Origin: Nanobdellota archaeon
GTDB lineage: Archaea; Nanobdellota; Nanobdellia; Woesearchaeales; WJIZ01
Direction of reading: 5' to 3'
Assembly (NCBI GenBank): GCA_023140175.1
Contig: JAGLMD010000085.1
Location: 1-36,879, forward strand
Length of the DNA stretch: 36,879 bases
Made by a program: the position numbers and the translations under genes. The notes beneath the pieces were generated by a model. That model was not told the origin of the DNA. It did no database searches and saw only the letters and a program-made list of their open reading frames with translations. How positions within the stretch are numbered: position 1 is the first letter of the stretch; each line of letters opens with the position of its first letter. Shown piece after piece: positions 5,509 through 20,659 of the stretch.

Positions 5509-6217
5509 TTTTATTGTCTTTCTGAGGTTGTTCTTTAGTATCTGTCTTTTCTTCAGCCTGCTTAGTCTCTTCTTTGGCTTCCTTTTCCCTGCTTATCTCT
5601 TCTTTTTTAGGAGCTTCTTTCTTAATCTCTTTTTTATCTTCTTTTATCTCTTTAGGAGCTTCTTTCTTAATCTCTTTTTTATCTTCTTTTATCTCTTTAG
5701 GATCTTCTTTCTTAATCTCTTTTTTATCTTCTTTTATCTCTTTAGGAGCTTCTTTCTTTTCTTCCTTCTCTTCTTCTTTAGCTGGTTTTTTACTTATTAA
5801 GGAAGAAGCTATCTTATCAAGGAATGACCTTCCTTTTGGAGCAATGACCCTTCCTTTATGAACTCCAATCTCTGCTTTTTTAATCAAACCTTCTTTTTCA
5901 AGCTGTTGGAGAATAACTCTTATGATCTTTCCAGATGCGCTGAAGAATTTTCCTGGTTTATGCCCGCGGTTCTTTTTACTGCCATATTTTATTCTTAATT
6001 TCTGAACGCCAATAGGACCAGATGATCTGTAGATTGTTCTAAGGATAGCAGCAGACCTTGCATACCACCAGTCTTCTCTTGCAGGTACTCTTTCTTTGGC
6101 TTTGCCTGTTTTAACAAATGCAGCCCATTCCGGAGCCTTAACATTTTCGACTTTAGCCAATTCCTTAGCTGTTTCTTCAATTAGTGTATTAGCTTCAACA
6201 TCATAAACTGTAGCCAT
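5501..6217 (-). CDS. rps19e: 30S ribosomal protein S19e with repeated Lys/Glu tail
   Basis: Residues 1-145 are S19e: ATVYDVEANTLIEETAKEL, PEWAAFVKTGKAKERVPAR, DWWYARSAAILRTIY, and the winged-helix region HKPGKFFSASGKIIRVILQ. The family is about 145-150 residues, but this protein has 238 because of a C-terminal tail built from 15-residue units of the type KEIKEDKKEIKKEAP. It is the first gene of the r-protein operon. The tail resembles that of L31e in the same operon. Confidence 0.95.
   Translation of the reverse strand: MATVYDVEANTLIEETAKELAKVENVKAPEWAAFVKTGKAKERVPAREDWWYARSAAILRTIYRSSGPIGVQKLRIKYGSKKNRGHKPGKFFSASGKIIRVILQQLEKEGLIKKAEIGVHKGRVIAPKGRSFLDKIASSLISKKPAKEEEKEEKKEAPKEIKEDKKEIKKEDPKEIKEDKKEIKKEAPKEIKEDKKEIKKEAPKKEEISREKEAKEETKQAEEKTDTKEQPQKDNKNG
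5610..5757. repeat. 45-bp tandem repeat inside rps19e
   Basis: Three 45-bp units (5610-5654, 5655-5699, 5700-5744) are identical except for one base (GGAG versus GGAT at the start of unit three). A partial fourth unit ends near 5757. Each encodes 15 residues of the Lys/Glu tail. Near-perfect identity suggests recent expansion, so copy number may vary between strains. Confidence 0.95.
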
Positions 6218-6304: not shown

Positions 6305-7546
6305 TTATTTCTTTTTAACAATAACATCAATTATCCTGTTGTTTTCTACTCTGTTAATTGTTATTACAATTTTTTTTAGTTCTATCTCCTCTTCTTCTTC
6401 GGGGATTCTCCCTATTTTCTTCAGAATATAGCCCGATAGTGTATCATAATCTTCACAAACCTTGAGATCTGTCTTGAGCTCCTTGTTTATGTCTTCAATA
6501 TCTGCTTTGCCAAGTACTTTGTATATGTTCTTGTCAAGCTTTCTTATTCCTGGTTCAAATTTCTCTGTTTCATCTACTATCTCGCCAACAATCTCTTCAA
6601 GAATATCTTCTACTGTAATAATTCCGGAAGTGCTGCCATGCTCATCTACAATTATCGCCATATGTTGTTTTTTCTTCTGGAACAATTTCAACATTTCATC
6701 AATCTTTTTTGTATCCGGAACAAAGAGTGGTTTCCTCATCAGCTTTTCTATACTGATGTCAAATTTTTTCTTTTTGATATATTCTAAAGCATCTTTGAAA
6801 TAGAAAGTTCCCACAATCTTGTCTTTATTTTCTTCATATACCGGGAATCTGCTGTGGTGCTTTTTATCTATAAGATCCAGTGCAGCTTTAAGATCATACT
6901 TCGCATTAAGCATAATCATATCTGTCCTAGGCACTTTTATCTCATCAACATCAATGTCGTCAAATTTAAAGATTCTCTGTATCATCTCTTTCTCTTCTTT
7001 ATCTATGCCGCCTTCTTCCTTGGCTATGTCAACTATGTTCTTTATCTCTTCTTCGGTGATCTTTGGCCTTACAGGCTGCACCCTGAATATCTTCACAGTA
7101 ATGAAATCGAAGATTATGATTAAGGGATATAATATGATGCTCAGGGTGTAAATTGCAGGGGCTATGAAGAGGGATATCTTATCTGAATGGGTTGTGGCAA
7201 GATTTTTTGGGACTATCTCCCCAAATACCAGGATAAGAAATGTCATTATCCCTGTTGCATATGCCAATGGATTGTTCTCAGGCCATATTCTTATTGCAAG
7301 GCCTGCAGCGAAGGCAGAGGCCCCGATATTTACCACATTATTGCATATAAGCAATGTTATAAGCATCTTATGGGGGTTGTCTTTAAGTTTCTTTAAGGAA
7401 TTGCTGCCCCTCGCATTCTTTTTTGTGAAAAGCCTTATCTTAAATCTTGATAATGAGATCAAGGCTGTTTCAGATGCAGAAAAGATTCCACTAAGTGCTA
7501 TATATACTACTAAGATCAATACCTCATTTACAGTTATATCTATCAT
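6305..7546 (-). CDS. CNNM/CorC (HlyC)-type membrane protein with CBS pair
   Basis: Protein of 413 residues. The N-terminal DUF21/CNNM membrane domain covers about residues 1-190: LSGIFSASETALISLSR, then LLICNNVVNIGASA and FGEIVPKNLATTHSDKI. Two CBS domains follow, around VPRTDMIMLNAKYDLKAAL and LMRKPLFVPDTKKIDEML, then EHGSTSGIITVEDILEEIVG. A C-terminal CorC_HlyC domain includes DTLSGYIL. Members of the family are linked to Mg2+/Co2+ export and regulated by nucleotides bound at the CBS pair. The substrate here is inferred only. Confidence 0.92.
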   Translation of the reverse strand: MIDITVNEVLILVVYIALSGIFSASETALISLSRFKIRLFTKKNARGSNSLKKLKDNPHKMLITLLICNNVVNIGASAFAAGLAIRIWPENNPLAYATGIMTFLILVFGEIVPKNLATTHSDKISLFIAPAIYTLSIILYPLIIIFDFITVKIFRVQPVRPKITEEEIKNIVDIAKEEGGIDKEEKEMIQRIFKFDDIDVDEIKVPRTDMIMLNAKYDLKAALDLIDKKHHSRFPVYEENKDKIVGTFYFKDALEYIKKKKFDISIEKLMRKPLFVPDTKKIDEMLKLFQKKKQHMAIIVDEHGSTSGIITVEDILEEIVGEIVDETEKFEPGIRKLDKNIYKVLGKADIEDINKELKTDLKVCEDYDTLSGYILKKIGRIPEEEEEIELKKIVITINRVENNRIIDVIVKKK

Positions 7547-7595
7547 AGAGACAATTTAAATTAAATTGTATTTAAATTATTCTATTTCAGTTCTC

Positions 7596-7614
7596 TGTTA
7601 CCTTAACGGGTGCT
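7596..7614 (+). repeat. Left 19-bp inverted repeat of the cassette
   Basis: TGTTACCTTAACGGGTGCT is matched on the opposite strand at 10204-10222 with a single difference (G/A at position 17). It begins 3 bases after the left copy of CTATTTCAGTT. The 16 leading bases are identical in both copies, which is very unlikely by chance over 2.6 kb. Confidence 0.85.
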
Positions 7615-7783
7615 GAGAGCATAAAAAAATTAGTTCTTCTTTTTCTTTGGCTTATCCAATAAGCAGACTTGCATTTTAGGCATAAGATTGGATATTCTTT
7701 TCTCCTTCTGAGGTTGCTATTCCTGAATTAAATTTAGGAATAAATAAATGGTTGGATTTAATAAAATTGAGTAAGATCTAAAA
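7615..7783. other. Gene-free end of the cassette
   Basis: No convincing gene was found. On the minus strand there is a short open stretch containing CLKCKSAYW with basic surroundings, perhaps a scrap of a zinc-binding protein, but it has no clear start. The region is AT-rich and would be the 3' trailer of the radical SAM transcript. Confidence 0.4.
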
Positions 7784-8767
7784 TTATTTTCTATGCAAAC
7801 ATTTCTCTAAATTATATCTTCTACCGGGACATAAATCGCAACTAGGGTCAACTGATTTTTCCCTTAAATTTCTTAAAGACGGGCTATTCCAAATTTCTTC
7901 AAGACGTTCGCTTCTTGTATTACCCGCAATAATATCTCTACTAAAACAATGCCAAACATCTCCGTTATAATTCACAAAAAGAGTATAATGGTCAATGTCA
8001 CAGGCAGAACCGTCAAAATAAGCTCTTTCTCCTGCCAACTCAGGAAATTCTGTTCTTAATCTTTCTGAAAGTTTCTGTTTCTGTTTATCACCCAATTCTA
8101 GTCTATCATGATTATTTATAGCTCTTCCTCTCCAAAGCAAACTTTCAACCATTGGATAAATATTATTGTCAATACAATATCTGATTAATTCAGGAACTTC
8201 ATCATAAACTTGTTTACAAATTAAAATATCAACTCCCAATCTTGTCGATTTAGTTTCATTTAATCCAGCATCTAATAAATGTTGAAAACCAGTATAAATT
8301 TTCTCAGCAGATCCTTTTACATTCGTCAATTCTTCTAAAGTTTGCGGATTTCTTGATTTAATACTTGTAACTACAGACAAATCTAAATCCTTTATTCTTT
8401 CAGCAATTTCTCTTGTTACTAAACTAGCATTTGTAAACATTACAGAATACAAGCCTAATTCATTAGAATACTCAATTAATGGAAATAATTTTTTATCTAA
8501 TAATGGCTCGCCTGCCCCAAAAAATAAAGTGCTTCTGACTCCTAATTCTTTACTTTGCTGAATTAAATCTTTGTATTCCTCTAAAGATAATTGTTCGTTT
8601 CTATGACTTTTTTTTGAATCCAGAAAACAAAAAATACAATCAAGATTGCATGCAGTATCTAGATATAGAGATAATAAAAGAGGCTGGTTTCTACCTAAAG
8701 CTTCTCTTTTTTCTTTTTCAGTTCTTTCCAATCCCTTAAGTATAGGAATTTTTGACATTTTAATCAT
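7784..8767 (-). CDS. Radical SAM/SPASM domain protein
   Basis: Counting from the ATG at 8767, CNLDCIFC (C40, C44, C47) is the CxxxCxxC 4Fe-4S cluster motif of radical SAM enzymes. LFFGAGEPLL is the GGE-like SAM motif. The C-terminal part has a SPASM-like set of cysteines (GSACDID, VWHCFS, CDLCPG and a last Cys near the end) for an auxiliary cluster. SPASM proteins often modify peptides or enzymes, but the substrate here is unknown. The ATG at 8767 overlaps the methyltransferase stop as ATGATTAA; a TTG at 8779 is possible but less likely. Confidence 0.88.
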   Translation of the reverse strand: MIKMSKIPILKGLERTEKEKREALGRNQPLLLSLYLDTACNLDCIFCFLDSKKSHRNEQLSLEEYKDLIQQSKELGVRSTLFFGAGEPLLDKKLFPLIEYSNELGLYSVMFTNASLVTREIAERIKDLDLSVVTSIKSRNPQTLEELTNVKGSAEKIYTGFQHLLDAGLNETKSTRLGVDILICKQVYDEVPELIRYCIDNNIYPMVESLLWRGRAINNHDRLELGDKQKQKLSERLRTEFPELAGERAYFDGSACDIDHYTLFVNYNGDVWHCFSRDIIAGNTRSERLEEIWNSPSLRNLREKSVDPSCDLCPGRRYNLEKCLHRK

Positions 8768-9428
8768 CTTTTCTCGCAATTACAAAATAACTAATATCAT
8801 TGAGTGGCTCTATTTCTCCTTTCAATCCGCAAACTTGTAGCCATGCTTCTAAATCTCTTACAGAAAATCTTTGAGAAACCAACCCTTCTCTTGTATAAAT
8901 CCTGTCGTTTTCTTCTCTTGATATATTTAGACCTAGCTTCTGATATGTATCATATTGTACATCTCTTGCTTTTTCAGAATAAACACTAATCAGTAATTTA
9001 CTCTGCGGTTGAAGAACTCTTTTTAATTCTAACAATGCTCTTTCCTTATTTGTATCAGTATTGGCTAAAGTGTTAAAAGCAAGAATTTCTAAATCGAAAT
9101 AAGTATCCTGAAAATGTGTTTGAGAAATATCTTCTTCATAAATTCTGATATTTGAATTGCCTTTAAATCTTTCAGAACAAAACCTTGCCATTGTTGGGCT
9201 ATAATCTATGCCAATTATTTTTTTACAATGAGGCATAATTGCTTCTATTATTCTACCTTTCCCGCAACCTGCTTCTAAAACTAAATCAGGATGATTTTCT
9301 TGGCAATATTGTATGATCCTTCCTTCTTCAGCTTGAAGATATTCCTTTAACTTTTCAGGAAGTAGGGTTTCATCTATTGACTCTGAATGATCTATCCAAA
9401 ATTCTTTAGTTGTTCTTCTTTCTAACAT
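8760..9428 (-). CDS. Class I SAM-dependent methyltransferase
   Basis: Protein of 222 residues with a Rossmann-type methyltransferase core. Motif I is VLEAGCGKGRI (about 50-60), the acidic end of the second strand is IIGIDYSPTMARF, and the motif II region is FDLEILAFNTLANT. LLELKRVLQPQSKLLISVYS matches the post-core strand of small-molecule methyltransferases. It overlaps the radical SAM gene by a few bases, so the two are translationally coupled and probably work on one substrate. The substrate cannot be read from the sequence. Confidence 0.88.
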   Translation of the reverse strand: MLERRTTKEFWIDHSESIDETLLPEKLKEYLQAEEGRIIQYCQENHPDLVLEAGCGKGRIIEAIMPHCKKIIGIDYSPTMARFCSERFKGNSNIRIYEEDISQTHFQDTYFDLEILAFNTLANTDTNKERALLELKRVLQPQSKLLISVYSEKARDVQYDTYQKLGLNISREENDRIYTREGLVSQRFSVRDLEAWLQVCGLKGEIEPLNDISYFVIARKDD

Positions 9429-9504
9429 TTTACCACTCTATTGTGAATACATACTAAGAACCATTTAGTTTTTTACCCATAAATATCAGGTTATTTAAGA
9501 AAAA

Positions 9505-10152
9505 TTACTTGAAAGAGGGAATTATCTTCTCTTCTGCTTTTCTAAGATGCTCTTGAAGTGTAGAAACAGAAACTTTCATTATTTTAGCTAGTTTTTCTAG
9601 ACCAACTTTTCTTGGAAATTTATAATAACCGTACTCAACAGCTAATTCAAATGCTCTTTTTTGTTTAGGAGAAAGCTTAGGCATTATATGGGGAAAATGA
9701 ATATCATCTAACTTAACTTTCTGAATTTTCAGTATATCTAATTTTAATTCTTTTTCTTTTTCTAAATTTTTGATAAATTTAGTTATAACTTCTCTTTTCC
9801 AAGAAGCAATTTCCCAATACTCATAACCCTCTTTGTCTACAAAAACAGGTTTAATAAAAAATATTTTTTGGTTCCAATGGGAAGTAGGAATTTTTTCTTT
9901 TTTTCTTTTTCCAATGAAGAAAACTGTATTTTTAGAAATTTCAAGATTGATAATTCTTTCATCTTTTTTGAGATTTTTCAAAAATTCCCTAACATTTTTT
10001 TCATTCCCTTCAATCGTATGCCTCTCTGAAGTATATTCATAATTTTTATCATGCCAGTTACCTAATGGCATTGAATAAGAGATACACTTAAATCTCTCAC
10101 ATCTATCTCCAATAGTACAATCATGCTTTATTTTTAGTTTTGTAACCCACAT
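9505..10152 (-). CDS. HTH_10 (Bat-type) transcriptional regulator
   Basis: Protein of 215 residues. The last 55 or so form an HTH_10 domain: LSPKQKRAFELAVEYGYYKF, PRKVGLEKLAKIMKVSVST and LQEHLRKAEEKI. This is the DNA-binding module of archaeal bacterio-opsin activator-like regulators. The N-terminal 150 residues include CTIGDRCERFKCISY, whose three cysteines could bind metal, and a mixed alpha/beta part that could be a sensor. It is the promoter-proximal gene of the cassette, 76 bases from the methyltransferase, and probably controls it. Confidence 0.85.
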   Translation of the reverse strand: MWVTKLKIKHDCTIGDRCERFKCISYSMPLGNWHDKNYEYTSERHTIEGNEKNVREFLKNLKKDERIINLEISKNTVFFIGKRKKEKIPTSHWNQKIFFIKPVFVDKEGYEYWEIASWKREVITKFIKNLEKEKELKLDILKIQKVKLDDIHFPHIMPKLSPKQKRAFELAVEYGYYKFPRKVGLEKLAKIMKVSVSTLQEHLRKAEEKIIPSFK

Positions 10153-10183
10153 ATTAACCCGTAATATTCAGGTATTCAAATAT

Positions 10184-10240
10184 TTAACTGAAAATAGCTA
10201 TGCAGTACCCGTTAAGGTAACAATGCACTATTTCAGTTAA
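10184..10240. repeat. Right cassette boundary: inverted repeat inside a larger palindrome
   Basis: The core at 10204-10222 is the reverse complement of the left 19-bp repeat. It is framed by inverted arms, TTAACTGAAAATAG (10184-10197) and CTATTTCAGTTAA (10228-10240), complementary except for one extra A. Arm-core-arm symmetry resembles a recombinase or regulator site. It also sits between the HTH_10 promoter and the next gene's promoter. Confidence 0.7.
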
Positions 10241-10272: not shown

Positions 10273-10371
10273 ATGGCTGAAACATCTAAGAGGGTATGTA
10301 AAAAATGCGAGTATGAGCTAGAGGAAGAAGATGTATCCTGTCCAATGTGTGGAGAGGACTATGATAAGTAA
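10273..10371 (+). CDS. Small zinc-ribbon protein
   Basis: A 32-residue protein with two zinc-knuckle pairs, VCKKCEYELE and VSCPMCGEDY, which would hold one zinc. A TATA-like TTTTAAATA is centred about 27 bases before the ATG at 10273, so a leaderless message starting there fits; an in-frame ATG at 10267 is an alternative. Such tiny CPxCG proteins are common in archaea and often go unannotated. It resembles half of a double zinc ribbon. The function is unknown. Confidence 0.65.
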   Translation: MAETSKRVCKKCEYELEEEDVSCPMCGEDYDK

Positions 10372-10414
10372 TAATATAGCAATGATTAAAAACCCTTTTT
10401 AATTCTTGACAGTT

Positions 10415-12646: not shown

Positions 12647-13432
12647 TTATAGCCTATATGTAGTAACTTTTTCCCTGATTTTATCCTTTGTCCTTTCCAT
12701 AGTTGAGATTGATTTGATTAAATAATTTGGATTTTCTCTGACAAAATTATAAAGTGCTCTTATCGCTTCAGGTTTTTGCTCATCGGAAAGTTGCTTATAA
12801 TCAAATAACTCCCTTAGCATCCAAGCCATTTTCTTGCGTTTAAGTTGTGTTGTTGTTCCAAGTAATACTCCTTTACCATAATCCATTCCTATTGAATGCA
12901 GGTATTGAACATTGGCATTTATTGTCTGAGGATGAGTTCCTAATAGCGATGGATAGTTTGTTAGTAATTCCCTGCCGGATGCTCTGTCTTGATATTCTTT
13001 TCTCAATAATCCAATATGGCCTCTATAGTTTCTCTCAATAGTCTCAGGATTCATTCCTAGCAATTGAGCTTGTGATGCTATCTTCTCATCTTTCAATCCA
13101 AGAGACGATAACCTTTGATAATTCCTCTCAATAGTCTCAGGATTCATTCCTAGCAAATGAGCAAGTGTAACTATCTTCTCATCTTTCAGCCCAAGAGACG
13201 ATAACCTTTGATAATTCCTCTCAATAGTCTCAGGATTCAATGACAGCAATTCAGCATTTGATGCTATTTTATCATTTGTTAATCCTTTATTTTTTAGAAA
13301 CTCATAAACCTTTCTGACAGAGTCTTCAGTAGCGTTTGGACTATTTAGTATCCAATCTATTGAAAAATTAGGGACATCTACATCAGGCAGTAATTCATTT
13401 ACTATTGCATCCAAGTTGCCTTTGGCTATCAT
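12647..13432 (-). CDS. mTERF-like helical repeat protein
   Basis: Protein of 261 residues. Residues 50-142 hold three 31-residue repeats of the type GLKDEKI...LLGMNPETIERN followed by YQRLSSL. Further, more diverged units follow (NYPSLLGTHPQTINANVQ). The LGL-x-DEKI and NPETI pattern resembles mTERF repeats, the nucleic-acid-binding helical solenoid of mitochondrial and chloroplast transcription factors. Two of the repeats are nearly identical in DNA. The C-terminal 80 residues are basic. A nucleic-acid-binding role is inference. It is divergent from the metallopeptidase gene. Confidence 0.6.
   Translation of the reverse strand: MIAKGNLDAIVNELLPDVDVPNFSIDWILNSPNATEDSVRKVYEFLKNKGLTNDKIASNAELLSLNPETIERNYQRLSSLGLKDEKIVTLAHLLGMNPETIERNYQRLSSLGLKDEKIASQAQLLGMNPETIERNYRGHIGLLRKEYQDRASGRELLTNYPSLLGTHPQTINANVQYLHSIGMDYGKGVLLGTTTQLKRKKMAWMLRELFDYKQLSDEQKPEAIRALYNFVRENPNYLIKSISTMERTKDKIREKVTTYRL
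13007..13285. repeat. 93-bp tandem repeats in the mTERF-like gene
   Basis: Units at 13285-13193, 13192-13100 and 13099-13007 (minus strand) each encode 31 residues. A block of about 40 bases around CTCAATAGTCTCAGGATTCA is almost identical between units, so duplication is recent. The last unit diverges at its end. Confidence 0.85.
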
Positions 13433-18313: not shown

Positions 18314-20659
18314 TTGTCAAAAAAAGAAGCTATTGAGTTTGGGGACAGTTCTTTCGAAGGGCATTATTTTTTTAATAAGGGCAATATTCTGGCAAAGGAT
18401 AGTACGGTAATAACAATCAAAGTAGAGAATGCACAGCCTATAAGCTTAATTGCTTCTCCCGGGACAGTTCCTGTGAGGTTGAGCGGGGCTTTAGTTGTAG
18501 GCAGAACCAATAACAATGTTTTTAGAAGGATGAGGGATAAGATAGAGGATTTCTTTTTTCCAGATAGAAGAATAAGGCAACCAGGCTCTGACGGTGTTTA
18601 TCAAGGTAGGGATATTGTAGGTAATAATTATGGGCAGGTTATTCAGTCTATTGATGGTTCAGGTCAAGAAGGTTATGTGGATAGTTCTTATAGCCCTGCA
18701 ATTTCAGGGCCTACTGCTCCTGAAGCTATAACTGTTCCTGGTCAGTCTTATGCCGGGGGTGATGGTACTTTATCAACTTCATCAGCTGGTTCGGTTGGGG
18801 ATGGGTCTGGTCTTGGAAGCTCTTCAAGCGGCGGCTCTGATGGAGGTTCTAGTAGCGGCACTTCATCTGGTGATTCAGGCGGTGGATCTGGCAGTAGCTC
18901 TTCATCAGGTGATTCTGGCGGCTCTGGCAGTGGATCCGGCAGTAGCTCTTCATCAAGTGATTCAGGCGGTTTTGATGGCAGCTCTGATGGGGATTCTTCA
19001 TCAGATTGGTCTAGTGAAGGGAGTTCAGAATGGGATTCTTCATCAGGCGATGGCTCTTTGTCCGGAGGTTTTAGTGGCGGCTCTGGAGAGAGTTCTGATA
19101 TTGGAACTTTGTCAGATGCTTCTACTTCATCAGCCAGCTCTAGCAGTGGCAGCTCTTCAGAAGAGGTATCTAATAGTTATATAAGTGATGCAACCATATC
19201 AGAAAAGAGTTCAAGCAGTTCTACTATCAGCTCTGACATTTCTACAGATAGTATATCGGATGCGGCAGGAATCACATCTACTTCCAACATAACTACAAGT
19301 TCTTCTAGCAGTACATTTACTTCAACCAGCAATCCAGGGGAGTATTCTACTTCAACTGGTGATAGTATCAATGAGTCTGATGGTGCGCCTGACGCATCAG
19401 CCAGTTCTGCTGCTGCTTCTTCTGCTTCAAAAGCATCATCTGATGCTTCTGGGGGCGGCTTTCTTATCTCAGGAGAACCGATCAATACTAGTTCTATTGA
19501 TGAAGAAGATTCGAGATTGGCTTTGGAAAATAAGAGAACGTATACCTCTGAAATAGACAGGTTTAAATTATCCAATGGAACGACAAAGGATTCAATATTG
19601 TTAGATATTAAAACAGATGAGAACCGAACTAATGAGGCATATAAAAGAAAGAAAGAAGACTCTAAGATTTCTTATAAAAAATTTTTAGTAGATAATGCTG
19701 TGATGGGAGCCACCTATTTCATGGTGCTTATTGTTTTATTTGTTGTGCTGTTTTTCTCAGTTAAATTTACAGAATCTGCAATTAAGCATAATATAGTGAA
19801 ATCAAAAGGGGATATATTGGATATTCCTGTCAAGAAGATTATGTCCAGGAGATCGATTACTGTAAATGAAAATGCCCGCCTGATCGATCTCATCTCTACT
19901 ATGGATAGGAAGGGACTTAATTCGGTCTACTTTGTCAAGAAGAAGAGAAAGAATACTATGGAGATCATCTCTAAAAAAGCCATACTAGATGCGATATTCT
20001 GCGTTAAGATCAAGGAGATCGAAGAATATGAGAAAGCATTATCCTCTTTGAAAGTCAAGGATATAATGGATATCTCATCTGTAAGAATTGCACCAAATAC
20101 ATATGTATACAAGGCTGCTGCTATAATGGCTAATGAAATGGCTACTCATGCCCCTATTGTCAGCCATGACAAGATTATAGGAACGATAACCCAAACAGGC
20201 ATTCTGAAATATTTATTTAGCAAGAAATTGATCAGGAGATTATTGAGTGAGAAGAATCTTCCTGCTTTGACATCTGTGATGAAGAAAAAAATCAGGATTG
20301 TCACACCTGATACATATATTAAAGATGCTGTTTCTGTTATGAGGTCTTCTAATGTTAATTGTGTCCTTGTTCTTGAGGATGATATTTTAGCGGGAATATT
20401 CACCCAGAATGATTTTTTACATGATTCAGTAATCAATCCCCAGATTCTTTGCAAGGGTATCGTAAGAAAAGTCATGAGTAAGCCAGTATTTACTATCTCT
20501 TCCGATAAAACTATAATTGATGCAGTCAGCTATATGGTCCAAAAGGGACATCACCATCTTGTTGTTGTTAATGGTGAAGAAATTATCGGCATACTTAATC
20601 AGACAGACTTATTTAGGGTGTTATCTCCTTTTTATAAAGACTTATTTCAGAAGTCTTAG
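18314..20659 (+). CDS. Ser/Gly-rich surface protein with one membrane span and four CBS domains
   Basis: Protein of 781 residues from a TTG at 18314, probably N-terminally incomplete. Residues 1-65 form a beta-rich exported domain (ITIKVENAQPISLIASPGT). About 150-400 is an almost pure Ser/Gly/Asp/Thr linker. A single membrane helix lies at about 466-486 (ATYFMVLIVLFVVLFFSVKF). Four CBS domains follow, at about 505-565 (KKIMSRRSITV), 580-640 (VKDIMDISSV), 651-710 (LTSVMKKKIRI) and 716-775 (VRKVMSKPVF). This predicts an outside linker and a cytoplasmic nucleotide-sensing part. Ligand and output are unknown. Confidence 0.75.
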   Translation: MSKKEAIEFGDSSFEGHYFFNKGNILAKDSTVITIKVENAQPISLIASPGTVPVRLSGALVVGRTNNNVFRRMRDKIEDFFFPDRRIRQPGSDGVYQGRDIVGNNYGQVIQSIDGSGQEGYVDSSYSPAISGPTAPEAITVPGQSYAGGDGTLSTSSAGSVGDGSGLGSSSSGGSDGGSSSGTSSGDSGGGSGSSSSSGDSGGSGSGSGSSSSSSDSGGFDGSSDGDSSSDWSSEGSSEWDSSSGDGSLSGGFSGGSGESSDIGTLSDASTSSASSSSGSSSEEVSNSYISDATISEKSSSSSTISSDISTDSISDAAGITSTSNITTSSSSSTFTSTSNPGEYSTSTGDSINESDGAPDASASSAAASSASKASSDASGGGFLISGEPINTSSIDEEDSRLALENKRTYTSEIDRFKLSNGTTKDSILLDIKTDENRTNEAYKRKKEDSKISYKKFLVDNAVMGATYFMVLIVLFVVLFFSVKFTESAIKHNIVKSKGDILDIPVKKIMSRRSITVNENARLIDLISTMDRKGLNSVYFVKKKRKNTMEIISKKAILDAIFCVKIKEIEEYEKALSSLKVKDIMDISSVRIAPNTYVYKAAAIMANEMATHAPIVSHDKIIGTITQTGILKYLFSKKLIRRLLSEKNLPALTSVMKKKIRIVTPDTYIKDAVSVMRSSNVNCVLVLEDDILAGIFTQNDFLHDSVINPQILCKGIVRKVMSKPVFTISSDKTIIDAVSYMVQKGHHHLVVVNGEEIIGILNQTDLFRVLSPFYKDLFQKS
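18800..19480. repeat. Ser/Gly low-complexity coding repeat
   Basis: Imperfect repeats of a unit like GGCAGTAGCTCTTCATCAGG followed by TGATTCAGGCGG encode the Ser/Gly/Asp linker. They are clearest between about 18880 and 18980. GC content is higher here than in the neighbouring genes. Such stretches are prone to length change. Confidence 0.8.

Follow-up and report, generated by a model that had tools for sequence, protein, structure and literature searches.

Mobile insertion cassettes such as MIC231 of Bacillus cereus and the mic with qnrD (PMC3913671) carry passenger genes between short inverted repeats, with a short direct repeat and without a transposase. For MIC231, PMC3913671 cites the IS231A transposase as the enzyme that acts in trans to move it. 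The direct repeats measure 10-13 bp in the IS4 subgroup of insertion sequences and 10-12 bp in IS231 (PMC2266710). The locus described here lies in a window of 36,879 nucleotides (the whole stretch of DNA that was analysed) from an uncultured DPANN archaeon of the Nanobdellota, probably a woesearchaeote. It has the same plan as the mobile insertion cassettes, and its direct repeat of 11 nt has the length found in IS4-type insertion sequences. It differs from the former in being archaeal, in the absence of any cognate insertion sequence in our searches, in its unequal end tips and in that its mobility is putative. It differs from the latter in lacking a transposase, and its ends do not fit the listed IS231 and ISH8 end patterns. 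Since a cognate insertion sequence, one defining feature of mobile insertion cassettes, was searched for and not found, we do not class the locus among them.

Gene Content of the Cassette

The block holds three genes, all on the same strand, and its neighbours on both sides are housekeeping genes.

6305..7546, minus strand: left flank gene of the CNNM/CBS/CorC family, the conserved neighbour at the empty site
7784..8758, minus strand: radical SAM/SPASM enzyme gene (rSAM; PF04055, PF13186), its ATG at 8758 directly after the stop of the MT gene
8760..9428, minus strand: class I SAM-dependent methyltransferase gene (MT; Methyltransf_11)
9505..10152, minus strand: HTH_10 transcriptional regulator gene (PF04967)
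10273..10372, plus strand: right flank small zinc-ribbon ORF of about 32 aa, with a counterpart at the same place in a genome of the same genus

This is the content, radical SAM/SPASM enzyme, methyltransferase and HTH_10 regulator, that the earlier note had read from the sequence; its statement that no transposase lies inside was also confirmed. No structured RNA scored above threshold in the cassette, and a stretch of 168 nt inside the left end (7616-7783) is non-coding.

The HTH_10 protein matches PF04967 with 61.1 bits (cut-off 23.1) and thus shares with the bacterio-opsin-activator-type regulators a C-terminal HTH_10 domain well over the Pfam cut-off. It is set apart from them by a conserved N-terminal half, to which no function is assigned, and by the CC-N10-GG operator proposed below. 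The rSAM protein gives 67.7 bits for the radical SAM core (cut-off 29.5) and 48.1 bits for the SPASM domain (cut-off 21.5). Similar to the radical SAM/SPASM maturases and heme-type enzymes (StsB, NirJ, AhbD), it has the CxxxCxxC core (Cys 35, 39 and 42) and SPASM cysteines (Cys 251, 269, 308 and 318). Against the named SPASM subfamily models of NCBIfam, including these three, every match nevertheless fell far under the family cut-offs (best 91 bits, cut-offs at least 500).

Insertion Site in Related Genomes

The order at the locus is L31e-, PDCD5- and S19e-like genes, CNNM, the cassette, the zinc-ribbon ORF, a CxxCxxCC protein and ArgRS, where the ribosomal, PDCD5 and ArgRS names come from reading the translations. 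The tail of the S19e-like ribosomal protein is rich in lysine and glutamate and is encoded by 45-bp tandem repeats (5606-5779). Two other repeats were seen in the window: almost three tandem copies of a 93-bp unit (31 aa; 13025-13275) in the gene of an mTERF-like repeat protein (12647-13432), and, at a GC peak of 45% (18314-20659), a Gly/Ser-type 48-bp repeat within a protein of 781 aa that has four CBS domains.

Comparison with relatives, which the earlier note had proposed as a way to find an empty site, gave one. In a genome of the same genus (G001) CNNM, the zinc-ribbon ORF, the CxxCxxCC protein and ArgRS follow in series without the block, and about 120 nt separate the first two. CNNM adjoins ArgRS, again without the cassette, in three other members of the family (G002, G003 and G005); in G004 S19e adjoins CNNM, the other side of which lies outside the view, and from G006 CNNM alone was recovered. 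None of the relatives carries the three genes at the same place, and no close homologue of MT or rSAM was found in G001-G006.

Repeats at the Cassette Ends

7582..7592, plus strand: left copy of the direct repeat of 11 nt, CTATTTCAGTT, which may be a target-site duplication
7596..7615, plus strand: left arm of the 20-nt inverted repeat, TGTTACCTTAACGGGTGCTG
10184..10197: TTAACTGAAAATAG, nearly a copy of the 11-mer but inverted, inward of the right arm and overlapping the HTH_10 promoter
10203..10222, minus strand: right arm of the 20-nt inverted repeat, TGTTACCTTAACGGGTACTG
10228..10238, plus strand: right copy of the direct repeat of 11 nt, CTATTTCAGTT

The inverted repeat had been described as 19 bp long with one mismatch; the pair and its mismatch are as described, and the length is 20 nt. 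Its consensus is TGTTACCTTAACGGGT[G/A]CTG and it encloses 2.6 kb. It is the sole pair of such quality within the window, and pairs as good, at any distance, arose 0.1 times per shuffle when the window was dinucleotide-shuffled 30 times. An imperfect palindrome of 57 nt (10184-10240, z = -4.1) contains the right arm and, with its inner half, overlaps the promoter of HTH_10. The left arm and its flanks could form a small, weaker hairpin (z -2.2). Outward of the arms and before the 11-mer stand CTC on the left and ATGCA on the right (CTC against TGCAT). Such unequal tips outside the 20-mer are unusual for an insertion sequence.

The 11-nt direct repeat claimed just outside each end is present, 3 and 5 nt outside the arms, and its two copies are oriented as those of a target-site duplication would be. 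By chance, a direct repeat of 11 nt would lie no more than 10 nt beyond both arms with a probability of about 1e-4, while the 11-mer by itself is not rare, with 6 genome copies against 4 for the reversed control. To read the repeat as a target-site duplication is plausible, though the case is ambiguous. The argument for it is weakened by the near-copy of the 11-mer inside the right end, and the direct repeat may be in part a coincidence, since the 11-mer resembles the HTH_10 promoter. The empty sites of the relatives are too diverged to display the exact unduplicated target.

Searches for Further Copies and Transposases

In the 2.07-Mb draft genome the 20-mer was found at two places only, both at the cassette edges; when at most 2 mismatches were allowed, its core of 15 nt gave one additional match. 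The repeat does not stand at other promoters; its occurrence at many unrelated promoters is what the earlier note had said would speak against its reading. Further matches to the 20-mer, sought in this genome with up to 3 mismatches, across 353 genomes of the same order and in a sample of 351 genomes of the phylum, which overlaps the order set, stayed at chance level, about as many as with the reversed control. A 20-mer-like match beside a close HTH_10 homologue in another genome (G268) lies inside an ORF, has no partner and was judged to be chance. Four exact matches in a viral collection, one each, were on reading judged coding-like and unrelated. No viral relatives of the HTH_10 protein were found, and those of rSAM were just distant radical SAM proteins.

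No insertion sequence or transposase with the ends of the cassette was found in its own genome, a draft from which an insertion sequence could be missing, nor above chance in these about 700 genome scans (the two overlapping sets together). A search of the genome for IS4-type transposases gave two insertion sequences with PF01609 transposases (loci L165 and L166), with terminal repeats of their own. They were considered as the source of the cassette ends and rejected, their ends being different and unrelated. The earlier note had taken the block for a non-autonomous mobile or site-specifically inserted module. Its insertion is borne out by the empty sites; its mobility is not, as no second copy and no matching insertion sequence or transposase was found.

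Composition and Origin of the Genes

The cassette had been described as more AT-rich than its flanks, and it is: GC is 28.5-31% across 7.5-10.5 kb against about 35% in the surroundings. The three genes have GC3 values of 0.17-0.20, compared with 0.316 +- 0.057 for a reference of 48 genes from the window and other contigs, and rank lowest or near-lowest among the 51 genes compared. Their codon-usage scores are extreme as well, so that the proposed check of GC and codon usage marks them as atypical. In the tree, the HTH_10 protein clusters with homologues of two other families (f38 and f62; support 98/95), and the homologue from its own family (G006) falls in another clade. Because relatives are free of the cassette, GC3 is atypical and the HTH_10 protein groups elsewhere, we read the block as a recent insertion, probably acquired horizontally.

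A Candidate Operator

9477..9490: operator-like palindrome CC-N10-GG, CCATAAATATCAGG, upstream of the MT gene
10159..10172: operator-like palindrome CC-N10-GG, CCGTAATATTCAGG, shortly before the start codon of HTH_10

These two sites lie 62 nt before the MT start and 20 nt before the HTH_10 start, both shortly after a TATA-like sequence, a placement that would suit repression. Of 36 HTH_10 homologues, 12 have CC-N10-GG no more than 32 nt from the start, compared with 3 in an upstream control region, and the optimum at spacer 10 is sharp (none at spacers 3-6 and 13-15; 8 at spacer 11, partly CCC/GGG runs); the pattern was picked after viewing the sequences, so that these counts are a description and not a test. 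A generic palindrome score, applied upstream of the homologues, did not rise above that of shuffled sequences. Many loci (L111-L139, L160) show CC-N10-GG close to the start codon of the HTH_10 homologue. It is a candidate autoregulatory operator of the HTH_10 family.

Since CC-N10-GG precedes both HTH_10 and MT, the regulator putatively controls itself and both enzymes, and the sequence common to the two upstream regions suggests that it does so through one operator. This fits the earlier suggestion that the HTH_10 gene is the likely regulator of the enzyme pair. The 20-mer was itself considered as the HTH_10 operator and rejected, as it lacks the CC-N10-GG spacing.

The Operon in Other Genomes

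MT directly precedes rSAM on one strand in seven other genomes, as a pair in G112, G070, G207 and G245, and with HTH_10 preceding both in G043, G184 and G187. In two of these three homologous operons (G184 and G187) CC-N10-GG is also found between HTH_10 and MT; the G043 locus contains a toxin-antitoxin-like insert of two genes. The occurrence of the gene pair across the order is patchy. Comparable flanking repeats were absent from the three loci tested (G043, G184 and G112), and the repeats therefore belong to the present insertion and not to the operon.

In family f38, HTH_10 homologues lie beside MT and radical SAM operons at six loci (L077, L149, L153, L156, L157 and L187). Some f38 loci with the same HTH_10 type also carry Asp/Glu racemase, D-Ala-D-Ala dipeptidase-like and PEP-utilising enzymes. 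Such neighbours suggest that the chemistry is that of small molecules or peptides and involves D-amino acids, and the loci possibly represent an uncharacterised biosynthetic cluster of these archaea.

Proposed Explanation and Its Alternatives

The observed repeats, empty site, composition, recurrent gene order and operator motif are best explained, with a confidence little above even, by a regulated operon of HTH_10, MT and rSAM that would have been acquired ready-made from another archaeal family. It would have entered by a single insertion where the promoters of the CNNM and zinc-ribbon genes diverge, held between matching 20-nt inverted ends and leaving an 11-nt target repeat on either side. 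Without a transposase of its own, such a cassette would be moved in trans and function like a mobile insertion cassette. HTH_10 would bind CC-N10-GG before its own start and before MT, controlling both units, most likely by repression. MT and rSAM would be translationally coupled, with the same small molecule or peptide as putative common substrate.

Homologous or illegitimate recombination, or some unknown site-specific recombinase, may instead have brought the block in, with the 20-mers serving as regulatory sites that link the neighbours to the cassette's regulator or to another factor. The 20-mer does have its centre about 60 nt ahead of three start codons, those of CNNM, HTH_10 and the zinc-ribbon gene, a CTATTT(T)CAGTTAA-like promoter sequence stands 5 nt from the right arm on both sides, and ACCCGT..AGGTA is common to the 20-mer and the HTH_10 operator. 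We consider this account rather unlikely all the same: the 20-mer was not found at other HTH_10 promoters and lacks the CC-N10-GG spacing, no such site exists in the CNNM-zinc-ribbon gap of the same-genus relative, both genome copies fall exactly at the cassette edges, and the 11-mers are oriented like a target-site duplication. The non-coding stretch beside the left end could be taken for the place from which a once autonomous, now degenerate transposon lost its transposase. Six-frame reading of its fragments gave no recognisable transposase remnant and no relative was found with a transposase and these ends, which makes such a decay improbable. The patchy distribution of the MT-rSAM pair in the order would also be compatible with an ancestral operon lost from the other family members and flanked by repeats that arose by chance. 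We give this very little credence, as it requires several independent exact losses within the family and improbable repeats at both edges, and runs against the atypical GC3 and the clustering of HTH_10 with other families.

Returning to the regulated operon moved in trans, a broader and still doubtful proposal is that its ends represent an undescribed type, that of a transposase-less mobile insertion cassette of DPANN archaea carrying complete regulated biosynthetic operons between genomes. If the explanation is true, the locus would be a clean case in which an entire regulated operon of enzyme genes came into the genome of a DPANN archaeon as one bounded unit. To our knowledge, the transcription factors of DPANN archaea have been little studied, and HTH_10 with CC-N10-GG offers a testable regulator-operator pair for them. 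The recurrent pair of methyltransferase and radical SAM enzyme, which in some relatives lies beside D-amino-acid-type enzymes, is a candidate for an uncharacterised biosynthetic pathway.
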